Shown here in pieces: positions 12,979-30,501 of a stretch of DNA of 64,000 nucleotides (the stretch's first letter is position 1; every line of letters starts with the position of its first letter). Under the pieces are notes generated by a model. The model ran no database searches. It saw only the letters and a list, made by a program, of their open reading frames with translations, and was not told the DNA's origin. Both the position numbers and the translations under genes were made by a program. Source of the DNA: Helicobacteraceae bacterium (GTDB taxonomy: Bacteria > Campylobacterota > Campylobacteria > Campylobacterales > Sulfurimonadaceae); the NCBI GenBank assembly GCA_027038835.1, contig JALWGC010000014.1, positions 1 through 64,000 on the forward strand, read 5' to 3'.

Positions 12979-14241
12979 ATGGATTTTCTACGAATACTCG
13001 GACAACAAAAACTTGACGGAACCATAAAGATTTCAGGTGCAAAAAACGCTTCGCTGCCACTCATAGCGATGTCGATTCTCGCTAAAAACCGCATCACGAT
13101 GAAAAACGTTCCCCATGTTGCGGATATCAAAACCCTTTTGAAACTTCTTGGAAACTTGGGTGCGACCTACAGTTTCGAAGATGAAACGATTCAAATCGAT
13201 GCTTCGAGCATAGAAAAAACCACAGCGACATACGACATCGTCAAAACCATGCGTGCTTCGATTTTGGTACTTGGTCCGTTATTGGCTCGTTTTGGGCACT
13301 GTGAAGTTTCACTACCGGGCGGATGCGCCATCGGTCAGCGCCCTATCGACTTACACCTAAAAGCGCTGGAACTCATGGGCGCCACTATCGAGATAAAAGC
13401 GGGCTACGTCAAAGCAAGCGCCCCACAAGGTCTCAAAGGCGCACATATCATTTTCGACAAGATAACCGTTACGGGAACTGCTAACGTGGTTATGGCGGCC
13501 GCTTTGGCAAAAGGGGAAACGCAAATCGTCAACGCCGCCAAAGAGCCCGAAGTGGTACAGCTTTGTGAAGTGTTGCAAAAAAGCGGTGTGGAGATAGAGG
13601 GGATAGGAACGGCGATGCTTCGCATCAAAGGAAACGGCGGAGAATTGCTCCACATAGACCCATTCACCATCATTCCTGACCGTATAGAAGCCGGAACGTA
13701 TCTTTGTGCGGGTGCTATCACCAACTCGCGGCTGAGCATCTCCTTCGCCGATGCCTCCCACCTCGAATCGGTCATCGCCAAACTCGAAGAGATGGGATGC
13801 TGTTTCGAGATAACCCAATACACTATCACTATAGTTCCAACGGAAAACCTCAGACCCGTACGTATCGTCACTCAAGAATACCCCGGTTTTCCAACCGATA
13901 TGCAAGCCCAATTCGTCGCTTTGGCGACACAAGCCAACGGCGTATCGGTCATAGAAGAAAAACTGTTCGAAAACCGCTTCATGCATGTAAGCGAGCTACA
14001 AAGAATGGGTGCTTCCATCACTCTCAACGGAAACGTAGCGACAGTTACCGGAAAGACGAAATTAAGCGGCGCGGATGTCATGGCGACAGACCTTCGCGCA
14101 TCGAGCGCTTTGGTGCTGGCAGGACTCGTAGCCGAAGGAAAAACCGATGTCCACCGTATATACCATCTCGATAGAGGCTATGACAATCTTGAGGGGAAAC
14201 TCCAAAGTGTCGGAGCGAAAATAGAAAGACTAAAAGAGTAG
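12979..14241 (+). CDS. murA: UDP-N-acetylglucosamine 1-carboxyvinyltransferase MurA
   Basis: The 420-residue enzyme transfers enolpyruvate from PEP to UDP-GlcNAc, the first committed step of peptidoglycan synthesis in the cytoplasm. [18 protein letters not shown] holds the PEP-contacting Lys22 and Asn. [14 protein letters not shown] contains the catalytic Cys (Cys116 here, Cys115 in E. coli), which is also the fosfomycin target, so the protein should be fosfomycin-sensitive on this criterion. [13 protein letters not shown] near the end holds the conserved Arg of the second domain. It is a single plus-strand gene, convergent with hspR, and both stop codons lie in one shared hairpin. Confidence 0.97.
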
Positions 14242-14255
14242 CTTTGGCTACTCTT
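14234..14255. terminator. Shared hairpin of murA and hspR
   Basis: AAGAGTAGC and GCTACTCTT form a 9-bp stem with a TTTG loop. The murA stop (14239-14241) is in one arm and the hspR stop (14248-14250) in the other. T-runs are poor on both sides (TTTTAG on the minus side), so it may act as a bidirectional but weak terminator. Confidence 0.55.
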
Positions 14256-14625
14256 CAAAAACGATCATTTCGTAAATACTTTTCTTCGTTACAAGCGATT
14301 TGTTCGGCGGGACTGAGCGATTTCCAGCCATTTTGTTCAGCTCCTCGCGTAAATCCGCTATCTCTTTCTCCATACTTTCCATCTGCTCTTTCAAACGTAG
14401 AATGATATCGACTCCCGCTAAATTGACACCCAGTTCACGTGTGAGGCGAAGAATCAGTTTGATTTTATCGATATCGCGCTGCGAATAGAGCCTGACCCTT
14501 CCGTTGGAGCGGGAAGGTTTTATCAGGTTTTCCCGTTCGTACTGACGAAGCGTCTGGGGATGAATATCCAAAATCTTCGCAACGATACTGATAAGATAAA
14601 CCGGTTCATCGTAATGGTGCAGCAT
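14248..14625 (-). CDS. hspR: HspR, MerR-family heat-shock repressor
   Basis: The 125-residue DNA-binding protein has an N-terminal MerR winged helix (VYLISIVAKILDIHPQTLRQ, then YERENLIKPSRSNGRVRLYS). A dimerising coiled coil follows (LRLKEQMESMEKEIADLREE). HspR represses chaperone operons by binding the HAIR inverted repeat and usually controls its own operon. It follows cbpA directly (the stop of cbpA and the start of hspR touch), the same cbpA-hspR pair as in Helicobacter pylori. A HAIR-like operator lies over the cbpA promoter. Confidence 0.93.
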   Translation of the reverse strand: MLHHYDEPVYLISIVAKILDIHPQTLRQYERENLIKPSRSNGRVRLYSQRDIDKIKLILRLTRELGVNLAGVDIILRLKEQMESMEKEIADLREELNKMAGNRSVPPNKSLVTKKSIYEMIVFEE

Positions 14626-15546
14626 CTACAACTCCTTTGGAAGTTTTTCGTCCATCATCTCTCTTAACTTAGGATCGAGCGTATCGACATCCGGCAATAC
14701 GACGTTAGCTATGAGATACAGGTCCCCTTTGGCTTTTGTCTTTCTGTTTATCGCACCCATACCTTTTACTTTGAACTTCTGTCCGTTTTTCGTATTTTTA
14801 GGAACTTTGAGTTTGATCTCTTTTTCAAGGGTCTTGACAGGCACTTTACCGCCAAAAAGTGCTGTATGCAGCGGAATATCGATGGTTTTGACAAGATTGT
14901 CCCCATCCCTTTGGTATTCGGGTGAGGGAGCTACATGAATGGTCAAATACAAATCGCCTCTTCTTCCCCCTTGAGCGTGCCCTTTGCCTCGCACACGCAT
15001 CTTTTCACCATCTTTTACACCCGCAGGTATTTTGATGTCGAACGATTCACCGTTGATACTAACGGAATGGCTACCCCCAAGGATAGCGACGTTAAACGGG
15101 ATCGTTACGGAAGTACGGATGTCGAGATTTTGCGGTTGTTGATAGTGCGCTCCACCGTCAAAACCTCCAAATCCGCCGCTAAATCCGCCAAAACCGCTAC
15201 TACTTCTAGCTCTGGCACCCCCGCCGCCAAATCCGCCAAAACCACCTTGACCGAAGATACTGTTGATAAGGTCTTCCAAATCGATATCTTGATGGCTTCG
15301 GCTAAAGTCGCTGAAACTTTGACCGTTGAACATCGCATCGCCAAACTGGTCGTACTGCGCTTTTTTCTCTTTGTCGCTAAGTACTTCATAAGCGGCGTTT
15401 ATCTCTTTGAACTTCTCTTCGCACTCCGGCTCTTTACACACGTCCGGATGGTATTTTCTGGCTAATTTTCTATATGCTTTTTTAATCTCCGCTTCACTTG
15501 CGTTTGGAGAAATACCTAACGTTTCGTATAATGATTTATTACTCAT
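14626..15546 (-). CDS. cbpA: CbpA, DnaJ-class co-chaperone
   Basis: This 306-residue J-protein begins with a J domain ([23 protein letters not shown] motif in ARKYHPDVC). A Gly/Phe-rich linker (about residues 95-135) and two beta-rich substrate-binding domains with [13 protein letters not shown] and [13 protein letters not shown] follow. The DnaJ zinc-finger cysteines are absent, which makes it CbpA-type rather than DnaJ. It delivers unfolded clients to DnaK and stimulates its ATPase. It is the first gene of cbpA-hspR. Its promoter has a consensus -35, an extended -10 and an HspR-type operator, so it should be heat inducible through relief of HspR repression. Confidence 0.94.
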
Positions 15547-15594
15547 TGCTATCCTCTTTCCTATAAAATATATTTATTTCTTTTTCTACGCGCA

Positions 15595-15624
15595 ATTATA
15601 TCATAAAAGTTGAGTCAATGTCAA
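15595..15624 (-). promoter_or_regulatory. Sigma-70 promoter of cbpA-hspR
   Basis: On the minus strand TTGACA (15624-15619), an 18-base spacer and TATAAT (15600-15595) with a preceding TGA give a near-consensus vegetative promoter. It is the strongest -35/-10 match I found in the window. The predicted start near 15588 leaves a leader of about 41 bases. Confidence 0.75.
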
Positions 15625-15629
15625 TCAAC
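15609..15629. promoter_or_regulatory. HAIR-like operator for HspR
   Basis: TTGAGT and AATCAA are separated by exactly seven bases, within a perfect outer repeat AGTTGA/TCAACT. The HAIR consensus is CTTGAGT-N7-ACTCAAG; six of seven bases match on the left and five of seven on the right. The operator covers the -35 hexamer, so a bound HspR would exclude RNA polymerase, consistent with autorepression. Confidence 0.72.
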
Positions 15630-15683
15630 TATAAAGAAAACTTCCCTAAAGCGGAGATTTCGATAAACGATGAAAACTAAAAG

Positions 15684-15713
15684 GAAAAAAGAGGATGTTC
15701 CCCAAACGGGGAA
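15684..15713 (-). terminator. Probable terminator of purH
   Basis: On the minus strand TTCCCC-GTTT-GGGGAA forms a 6-bp GC-rich stem nine bases after the purH stop. CATCCTC and then a run of T's (15690-15685) follow. The T-run is displaced from the stem by seven bases, which weakens it. Confidence 0.5.
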
Positions 15714-15721
15714 GAGAGGTT

Positions 15722-17260
15722 TTAGTGGAGAAAATGTCTTTTACCGCTGAAATACAGACTCATACCGTGCTCGTTCGCCGCTTCGATAACCTCTTCGTCG
15801 CGAATGCTTCCACCCGGCTCTATAACCGCGCTAACACCGGCACTTGCAGCAGCGTCTATGGAGTCTCTAAACGGGAAGAACGCTTCGCTTGCCAGCGCTG
15901 CACCGCTAACGTCAAGCCCCATCTCTTTAGCTTTTTTCAGCGCACATTGAGCCGCATCGACTCTTGAAGTCATACCCATTCCCACGGCAACCATCGCCGA
16001 ATTTTTCACATATACGACACAGTTGGATTTCGTCAAAGACGCTACTTTGTAAGCGATTTCAAGGTCTTTTAGCTCCTGTTCGCTCGCCGCTTTTTTCGAA
16101 ACGAGCTTCGCGTTTTTCACTTCGTCCTCTTCGACTTTGTCGGCATCTTGGTACACAAAACCGCCATCGATATGCTTGAAATCTTTCTCATCGTCCGCAA
16201 GAGTGATTTTGTCGCTTCCATACTCGAAAAGTTTTATCCGTTTTTTCGTTCCAAACACCTCTTGCGCTTCAGGAGTGATGCGTCCGGCTATCACCACTTC
16301 GAGGAAAATTTCGTTCATTTTCTCCGCAAGCGCTTTATCCACTACGCCGTTTACCGCTACCACACCGCCGAATGCGGAAACTGGGTCGCACTTGAGCGCT
16401 TCGGTATAGGCATCGACCAAATTCTCTCTAATGGCAAAACCGCAAGGGTTTCCATGCTTGACGATACACACCGCATTTTCGTCTCCAAACGCCGCAGCTA
16501 TTTTCACCGCGCCGCTGATGTCGGTAAGGTTGTTGAAGCTCGCTTCCCCTTTGAGGGTTTTGAAATTTTTCGAATAATGGTTTTCAAATTCGTACAACGC
16601 ACCTTTTTGATGCGGATTCTCTCCGTAACGGGTATCGAAAACTTTCTCGCCAACGATGAATTGTTTCGCGCCGAAACCGCCGTTGAAGCGGCTGTTCATG
16701 TAGTTAGCTATCATACTGTCGTACGCCGCTGTGTGCTCGTACGCTTTTATCATCAAATCTCTTCGAAATTCAAGAGTGTTGTTGCCGTTTTCTATGGCAT
16801 CCAAAACCGCGTCGTAATCGGCTACGTCGGTAACGATGATGACGCTGTCGAAGTTTTTCGCCGCACTTCTTACCATCGCAGGCCCGCCGATGTCGATATT
16901 TTCGATAATCTCTTCAAAGTCGTCCGTTTTTTCGATCGTCGCTTTGAACGGGTAGAGATTGACACATACAAGATCGATAGCCTCCACACCGAGTTCTTTG
17001 GCTTGATCCAAATGGGACTGTTTGTCACGTCGATGCAAAATACCGCCGTGGATGTAAGGGTTGAGCGTTTTCACACGCCCTTCGAAACACTCCGGGAATT
17101 TCGTCACTTCGTCTATTTCTATGGCGTTGACACCCGCTTCTTTTATCATCTTGAACGTTCCGCCGGTGGAGATGATTTCATATCCGTTTTGCTCGAGTCT
17201 TTTTGCGAACTCGACGATGCCGCTTTTATCGCTAACGCTTAGTAATGCTCTTTTTTTCAT
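15722..17260 (-). CDS. purH: Bifunctional AICAR transformylase / IMP cyclohydrolase PurH
   Basis: The 512-residue enzyme performs the last two steps of de novo purine synthesis: formylation of AICAR with 10-formyl-THF and ring closure to IMP. The N-terminal MGS-like cyclohydrolase domain starts with [20 protein letters not shown] and includes [24 protein letters not shown] and [16 protein letters not shown]. The transformylase domain contains the conserved [10 protein letters not shown] with the catalytic Lys-His pair and ends with [20 protein letters not shown] and PGGS. It is co-oriented with and 14 bases from the DUF302-like gene. purL is also nearby but in a separate unit. Confidence 0.97.
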
Positions 17261-29360: not shown

Positions 29361-30128
29361 TTACTCCTTGTTGTCCGGCTTGAGTATTATGACGACTCGC
29401 GCACTTTGGGTATGAGGGTTTTTGGGAAATAGAATAGTTCGCAACCGCTCTTTTATGTTGTCGGCTTCTTGGTTGAGCGCTTCGCTTGGCGAGTAGTTGA
29501 GTATGCGAAAATCAAGCACTTTTCCAAGCGGACTAAGCTCTATAACCGCTTTGACCTCGTACCCTTGCGTATTTGCCGGCGGGAAGAAATGGTCATAAAC
29601 TATAGCGTGAATTTTAGCCAAATACTCGTTTACCTCCTCGCCGCTGGAGGTGTTCTTCTTGGTTTTGGAATCTCTCCCTTTATCTTTTGCGGTTGCATTT
29701 GCATGGGGCTTATGTGAAGCGGTGTACTCCTCCGTATCGACACTTTTTTGGATTTCGGCTATCCTCTTCGCGTCTATCTTTTTCGTTTTTTTCACTTTCG
29801 TATCGACCTTTTTCGTCCACACGTTGTCAAACAACGAATCGAGATCGATATCTTCACTCACGCTATCGACACTGGAGCGTTTTTTGTTTTTTTTCTTTTT
29901 CTGTTTTATCGTTTTCGTTTTACTCGATGCTTTCTTGACGACTTTTTTTTCATAAGGCTCGTTTTGCAGCGATATAGAGATGTAGTTTTTTTTCGTCATA
30001 CCGTAAGTGGGGGAGTTGGAAGATAGAAACATCACATAGACAAATCCACTTAGAAACAGAAAAAAAAGGCTCAGGGAAATGATGCCGCCGAGAATGAAGT
30101 AGTTTTTTTCCTTAGCCGTTTGTTGCAA
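29361..30128 (-). CDS. tolA: TolA/TonB-like periplasm-spanning protein
   Basis: The 255-residue inner-membrane protein has an N-terminal anchor (YFILGGIISLSLFFLFLSGF), a Lys-rich spacer (residues about 60-140, with KKVVKKASSKTKTIKQKKKK) and a C-terminal TonB/TolA domain (GYEVKAVIELSPLGKVLDFR, then ARVVIIL). It should transmit the ExbB/ExbD (TolQ/TolR) proton-driven motion to TolB and Pal. The start is probably TTG at 30128, behind AGAGG, inside the last codons of exbD. The longer frame to 30209 adds an unlikely Cys/Pro/Ser segment that overlaps exbD deeply. The gene sits between exbD and tolB as expected. Confidence 0.85.
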   Translation of the reverse strand: MQQTAKEKNYFILGGIISLSLFFLFLSGFVYVMFLSSNSPTYGMTKKNYISISLQNEPYEKKVVKKASSKTKTIKQKKKKNKKRSSVDSVSEDIDLDSLFDNVWTKKVDTKVKKTKKIDAKRIAEIQKSVDTEEYTASHKPHANATAKDKGRDSKTKKNTSSGEEVNEYLAKIHAIVYDHFFPPANTQGYEVKAVIELSPLGKVLDFRILNYSPSEALNQEADNIKERLRTILFPKNPHTQSARVVIILKPDNKE

Positions 30129-30501
30129 GGGAAACCTCTGTAAATCCTGCTTGCTTGACGGCAGCCAAAACAGACATGACGCTGCCATAGTCAAGTCGCT
30201 TGTCGGCACTTATGAGCACGCTCGCTTTGAGGTTGAGTTTTTTGGCATACTGATAGAAGTTGTCGCTAAAGGCGTTTAATTGGAAAATTTCGCCGTTGAC
30301 TTTGACGACACCCTCTTTGTTGATGGTTATATGCACGGGAGGGATTTTTTCGACTTGCTTCGAAGCCGAGCCTTGAGGGAGCATAACCGTTTCTTCGAAA
30401 ACGATGTTGGGTGCAATGACCATCAAAATAGCCAAAAGCACAAGCATAATATCGACCATCGGCGTGATGTTAAGCTCGGGCGATTCTTCCCAATCGAACA
30501 C
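30112..30501 (-). CDS. exbD: ExbD/TolR-family proton channel subunit
   Basis: This 129-residue protein has the short cytoplasmic start, then the single membrane helix with the conserved Asp (ELNITPMVDIMLVLLAILMV). A small periplasmic domain follows (VHITINKEGVVKVNGEIFQL, then VLISADKRLDYGSVMSVLAA). The helix Asp carries protons for the ExbB/TolQ pore. Given the downstream TolA-TolB-Pal, the physiological role is TolR. It starts directly after exbB and shares its end with the TTG start of the TolA-like gene. Confidence 0.93.
   Translation of the reverse strand: MFDWEESPELNITPMVDIMLVLLAILMVIAPNIVFEETVMLPQGSASKQVEKIPPVHITINKEGVVKVNGEIFQLNAFSDNFYQYAKKLNLKASVLISADKRLDYGSVMSVLAAVKQAGFTEVSLATNG

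Follow-up and report, generated by a model that had tools for sequence, protein, structure and literature searches.

The question raised by this locus is whether the inverted repeat ahead of a small chaperone operon is an operator through which HspR, the product of the second gene, represses its own synthesis. The locus lies in the window, the whole stretch of 64,000 nucleotides that was analysed, and comprises two genes on the minus strand: cbpA (14626..15546), an ORF for a DnaJ-like co-chaperone of 306 aa with DnaJ and DnaJ_C domains, and hspR (14248..14625), encoding a MerR-type repressor of 125 aa. The HspR protein has a MerR-type DNA-binding domain and clears the NCBIfam equivalog model NF047375 (119.2 bits, cut-off 105). 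The original prediction had placed hspR two genes downstream, but it is the next gene after cbpA, adjoining it directly with no gap, and is followed by a convergent ORF. This gene order, cbpA ahead of hspR on the same strand, was found in 121 of 134 loci, the other 13 having a cbpA start outside the fetched sequence. On the minus strand, a consensus scan placed terminator-like stem-loops where hspR ends (14233..14256) and after the upstream gene (15698..15713), both of them weak evidence. Because the scan gave five stems in 2 kb against a mean of 2.1 in shuffled sequences, cbpA-hspR is likely, rather than shown, to be a separate two-gene unit.

Upstream of cbpA, the minus strand reads GTTGATT, GACATTG and ACTCAAC in succession from 15629 to 15609, which bears out the HAIR-like repeat with exact N7 spacing that had been predicted at 15609..15629. 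Six of the seven arm pairs are complementary, and 11 of the 14 arm bases are those of the Streptomyces HAIR (CTTGAGT-N7-ACTCAAG). The match is thus imperfect, as the HAIRs of Campylobacter jejuni are likewise described to be (PMC7464140), and the repeat combines HAIR-like arms at exactly 7-bp spacing with a place in a heat-shock gene promoter. The accompanying sigma-70-type promoter (15624-15595, minus strand) was located by consensus scan and consists of the -35 box TTGACA (15624-15619), an 18-bp spacer and TATAAT (15600-15595) at a fixed distance from the HAIR, the latter within the extended -10 box TGATATAAT (15595..15603). The claim of a consensus promoter holds in full, with 12 of 12 bases and the TG of the extended -10; it is the only 12/12 site among seven promoter-like sites in 14000-16000, while shuffled sequences gave a mean of 2.7 sites with at least 9/12. 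TTGACA had also been put at the centre of the repeat. The overlap is real, but the box is made up of the final two bases of the left arm and the initial four of the spacer, and so lies to the left of the operator's exact centre. The layout is that of the H. pylori and C. jejuni Pcbp, with cbpA and hspR adjacent (the operon being judged from adjacency) and a HAIR over the core promoter.

The repeat alone proves little, since TTGAGT-N7-AATCAA without the promoter boxes occurs exactly twice in the 1.97-Mb genome, at this site and, at 29497-29515, inside an ORF. Bare-repeat genome searches gave 265 matches against 124 for the reversed control, and 130 against 93, and were dropped as evidence; a zero-mismatch match to the operator consensus at 29496-29516 of the window, inside an ORF (29361-30209, minus strand), was taken as probably a chance occurrence. 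The composite of HAIR, -35 and -10 has a single match in the 1.97-Mb genome at up to three mismatches, and the reversed-pattern control has none. Its conservation was assessed from 134 starting loci, made up of 30 (own genome included), 24, and 80 named relatives that were the best 80 of 455 HspR relatives and belong mostly to Sulfurimonas, Sulfuricurvum, ‘Helicobacteraceae’ and other environmental MAGs. Leaving out 13 loci without a cbpA start, 5 with short upstream sequence and 11 identical copies gave 105 distinct regions. Some of the other genomes share their upstream regions, letter for letter, with the named loci, which makes Sulfurimonadaceae in all likelihood the family of the window. 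The original prediction had named absence from close relatives as a finding that would count against the site; L010, a congener, has the site, and in 103 of the 105 distinct upstream regions the composite, with fixed spacing, reaches 17 or 18 of 18, a count that records preservation among kindred loci and not independent events. The exceptions are L053, which scores 15, and L099, which scores 14 and has just 136 bases upstream. A composite score of 17 was reached by 1 of 1050 single-base shuffles. The 20 loci drawn from outside the family, which represent 18 families of the order, all reach 15 or more, and 19 of them reach 17 or more. The HAIR taken alone scores at least 11/14 in 89 and at least 12/14 in 62 of the 105 regions, and dinucleotide shuffles reached 11 in 0.8% of cases and 12 in 0 of 2100.

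Since the left arm and the -35 box have bases in common, and coding sequence holds a closer match to the operator consensus, the HAIR-likeness could simply come with a strong promoter, in which TTGACA and the spacer resemble a HAIR by chance with no repressor bound. A HAIR-anchored alignment of 95 regions speaks against this reading: beyond the HAIR and the core promoter only a few bases close by are conserved, with the farther flanks free to vary, and the right arm (a)CTcAA, lying between the -35 and -10 boxes, is kept even though it is part of neither and is required by no promoter element. The right arm is also kept at the grpE, hrcA and clpB promoters, where its register to the -35 differs, and at groES the HAIR is separate from the -35. 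A promoter by-product is therefore very unlikely.

The evidence argues strongly, at the level of sequence, for 15609-15629 and the promoter forming the autoregulatory operator-promoter of the cbpA-hspR operon, at which HspR would repress its own operon. The autorepression circuit put forward in the original prediction gains support from an HspR that passes its family model, a conserved site and a HAIR lying on the -35, and so does its parallel with H. pylori, where HspR is described to bind the HAIR of Pcbp and to repress the promoter (PMC6102357). HspR very probably represses itself here too, a reading founded on the sequence and its conservation and, as regards binding, repression and the part played by CbpA in this organism, on analogy with the H. 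pylori and C. jejuni work. At the H. pylori Pcbp, mutation of the HAIR is reported to have abolished HspR binding in vitro and to have raised the transcript about 6.5-fold (PMC6102357), and at the C. jejuni Pcbp HspR is reported to protect positions -20 to -65 (PMC7464140, section 3.1).

In the mechanism proposed, HspR, probably as a dimer, would bind the HAIR-like repeat and cover the -35 box, so that the housekeeping RNA polymerase would be blocked from loading. Under stress HspR would be released, allowing CbpA and HspR to be made, and the newly made HspR would then shut the cbpA promoter again. The same HspR would probably also govern grpE-dnaK, clpB and groESL through the HAIR sites in their promoters.

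Two other uses of the site were weighed. The DNA-binding domain of HspR is MerR-type and the dyad covers the -35 box and spacer, as might be expected if HspR were bound within the promoter and activated it by untwisting the DNA. MerR-type activation accompanies a lengthened promoter spacer of 19-20 bp, whereas this promoter has one of 18 bp, and of the 102 cbpA promoters in which the core is clear, 100 have one of 17-18 bp. With the HAIR of the H. pylori Pcbp, moreover, described as mediating repression and not activation (PMC6102357), activation of this kind is very unlikely indeed. The repeat might instead be chiefly a target of CbpA or another nucleoid-type factor, with HspR secondary; cbpA comes first in the operon, and CbpA is reported to modulate HspR in H. 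pylori (PMC6032397). The modulation described there takes place in solution, however, and the spacing and arms of the repeat are those of the known HspR target, which makes a primary role for CbpA or such a factor exceedingly improbable. As an HspR operator, then, the cbpA site is sound, conserved and ordinary.

The original prediction had proposed a genome search for TTGAGT-N7-AATCAA-type sites at groESL and dnaK. HAIRs were found at grpE-dnaK, clpB and groES, but that pattern served poorly as a finder, these promoters carrying other arm variants. In the genome of the window, the grpE-dnaK promoter (C14:194447-194516; L236 2948-3017) has two HAIRs 49 bp apart, scoring 13 and 12 of 14, with no hrcA ahead and with the proximal site on the -35; the clpB promoter (C12:73338-73358; L210 4095-4115) has one HAIR scoring 12/14, the left arm of which doubles as the predicted -35; and the groES repeat, GTTTAGT-N7-ACTAAAC, has fully complementary arms but agrees with the Streptomyces form at only 10/14. 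To judge from their sequences, these three are probably HspR targets. Across the relatives, a best HAIR score of at least 10/12 was found in 39/45 groES, 36/43 clpB, 34/35 grpE regions without hrcA, and 24/26 hrcA regions; for groES this divides into 20/25 in Sulfurimonadaceae (including G005, with fewer than 70 bases upstream), 7/8 in other genomes without HrcA and 12/12 in HrcA-bearing genomes. A score of 10 within 400 bp can be reached by chance in a minority of the regions, so the register of the HAIR relative to the promoter is better evidence than the score. At cbpA the HAIR begins 4 bp ahead of the -35 in 97 of the 102 promoters whose core is clear. The left arm and the -35 coincide in 30/35 grpE promoters without hrcA, 22/26 hrcA promoters and 38/42 clpB promoters, and at groES the HAIR lies upstream of the predicted -35, most often by 23 bp (16/43). 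This overlap would account for the departures of the left arm from the Streptomyces HAIR, which reads TTGATT at cbpA, usually TTGACA at grpE and clpB, and TTGATA at the clpB of this genome.

Two further candidate targets were rejected. For Hsp20, the best HAIR-like match (10/14) lies inside a neighbouring ORF, and two weak hits near C2:168257-168301 are approximately 170-220 bp upstream, within another ORF or at its end. For the DEAD-box RNA helicase, a HAIR-like repeat of at least 10/12 within 100 bp upstream occurs in 3 of 24 loci (L345-L347), all from the genus of the window and including its own genome (C12, upstream of 99097); a fourth member of the genus (L349) has no such repeat in 97 bases, and L348 and L358 reach 10 farther upstream.

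In relatives with the HrcA-CIRCE system, this sits on hrcA-grpE-dnaK and on groES. The HrcA model NF003033 matched none of 61 Sulfurimonadaceae genomes and 26 of 39 genomes from other families of the order, of which 10 of the 26 exceed the curated cut-off; the model is not narrow, since it also gives sub-cut-off matches in 8 of the 14 control genomes. Some of the genomes are incomplete drafts, and that of the window is rated 100% complete. Pfam PF01628 (0 of 51 genomes) was rejected as a test for HrcA, 12 of the same 51 being HrcA-bearing by NF003033. An HrcA-like ORF stands ahead of grpE in 7 of 30 grpE loci, and one such protein has no PF01628 match yet is recognised by NF003033. Surveys based on PF01628, which missed all 12 NF003033-positive genomes, could thus wrongly call HrcA absent from this order.

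A CIRCE element of at least 13/18 at groES was found in 0/25 Sulfurimonadaceae, 11/12 HrcA-bearing genomes and 2/8 other genomes without an HrcA match; in the genome of the window the best CIRCE score at groES is 11/18, below 13. Of the two HrcA-less genomes with a CIRCE, G054 also lacks a grpE match and G043 an HspR match, gaps that missing contigs may explain. G043 (L325, L343), with neither an HspR nor an HrcA match, has strong CIRCE elements at both groES and grpE; the draft may lack its HrcA, or the protein may have diverged too far, and the lineage is possibly HrcA-only. At grpE, a CIRCE-like score of 13 occurs twice in Sulfurimonadaceae (in G011 and in G000, the genome of the window); it overlaps the gene start, and both look like background.

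Neither HrcA in the 61 genomes nor a groES CIRCE in the 25 was thus found in Sulfurimonadaceae, the two marks by which the two-repressor circuit of H. pylori and C. jejuni was sought. With HrcA undetected, the groES CIRCE missing too, and HAIRs at grpE-dnaK, clpB and groES, the chaperone regulon of the family is probably under HspR alone. The hrcA promoter of HrcA-bearing genomes carries a CTTGACA-type HAIR on its -35, the same as the Sulfurimonadaceae grpE promoter, which is most simply explained by deletion of hrcA with retention of its promoter. Two sigma-70-type factors were found in the genome, of 617 and 231 aa, the shorter of which lies between flagellar-type genes and is presumably FliA-like; no RpoH was seen among the sigma-70-type factors of this genome. 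That HrcA is absent from Epsilonproteobacteria among acidophiles has already been published, with remarks on Sulfurimonas (PMC10490939), in a paper in which the word HspR does not occur.

Extra right-arm motifs recur at spacings of roughly 24 bp. Relative to the main HAIR they occur at +24 (9/37) and -24 (5/37) at clpB, and at -49 (21/30 anchored promoters) and -26 (4/30) at grpE; the +24 set comes from five families, the -26 set from Sulfurimonadaceae only. At the clpB +24 position, the left arm is the -10 box. At cbpA, where the flanks are largely unconserved, a motif at +24 occurs in only 3 of 95 regions, and the anchored hrcA and groES promoters show no recurrent second right arm. A ladder of HspR units at about 24-bp steps is offered as a lead only; such steps would fit the footprint of H. 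pylori HspR, which is given as 70-80 bp and modelled as three dimers (PMC6102357).

We lean, if only slightly, towards a wider reading: that Sulfurimonadaceae lost HrcA, the gene being deleted from the front of hrcA-grpE-dnaK while the HspR-bound promoter was kept; that the chaperones were left to HspR alone, bound in steps of about 24 bp (the second grpE HAIR 49 bp upstream, the clpB and grpE arms at +24, -24 and -26, the groES HAIR 23 bp above the -35); and that heat reaches HspR by a different route, for which a chaperone (CbpA or DnaK, for instance) is the likeliest intermediary. The last part follows from the situation in H. pylori, in which HrcA is described as the thermosensor and HspR as heat-stable (PMC6032397), so that in Sulfurimonadaceae heat would have to reach HspR otherwise.

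With the cbpA site, a known circuit is carried into a group for which literature searches found no published study of it; the one paper found to contain both Sulfurimonas and HspR gives the number of hspR genes in the metagenome of a vent (PMC10696704). The interest lies in the probable HrcA-free HspR regulon and not in the site itself, which is ordinary. A family without detectable HrcA, together with just two sigma-70-type factors found in this genome, would be a natural setting where HspR is the only heat-shock regulator recognised, and in which the sensing of stress by HspR, described as unknown for H. pylori (PMC6032397), could be addressed without confounding by HrcA.

Among known systems, the locus is close to the H. 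pylori Pcbp, which has the same cbpA-hspR order and one HAIR, and is the same in kind in that HspR is described there as covering the -35 and -10 and as the sole repressor (PMC6102357, PMC6032397). The H. pylori operon has a helicase as its third gene (PMC6032397), while here hspR is followed by the convergent ORF. For H. pylori, the centres of the HspR sites are given as 72 bp (groES) and 117 bp (hrcA) ahead of the start (PMC6032397), whereas the proximal grpE site here lies on the -35. In C. jejuni, HspR is reported to bind Pcbp, Pclp, Pgro and Phrc, with strong and weak HAIRs (PMC7464140); the same promoters carry HAIRs here, with grpE replacing hrcA. HrcA is reported to cooperate with HspR in C. 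jejuni (PMC7464140), in contrast to Sulfurimonadaceae, in which no HrcA was found. From HrcA-CIRCE systems the family differs in both components, with no HrcA in 61/61 genomes and no groES CIRCE of at least 13/18 in 25/25. In Streptomyces, hspR is encoded within the dnaK operon, unlike here, where its partner is cbpA. What the two have in common is the HAIR of the form CTTGAGT-N7-ACTCAAG, the dnaK operon and clpB as targets (predicted ones here), and an HspR that is autoregulatory in Streptomyces (as related in PMC6102357 and PMC7464140) and probably so in the present operon.
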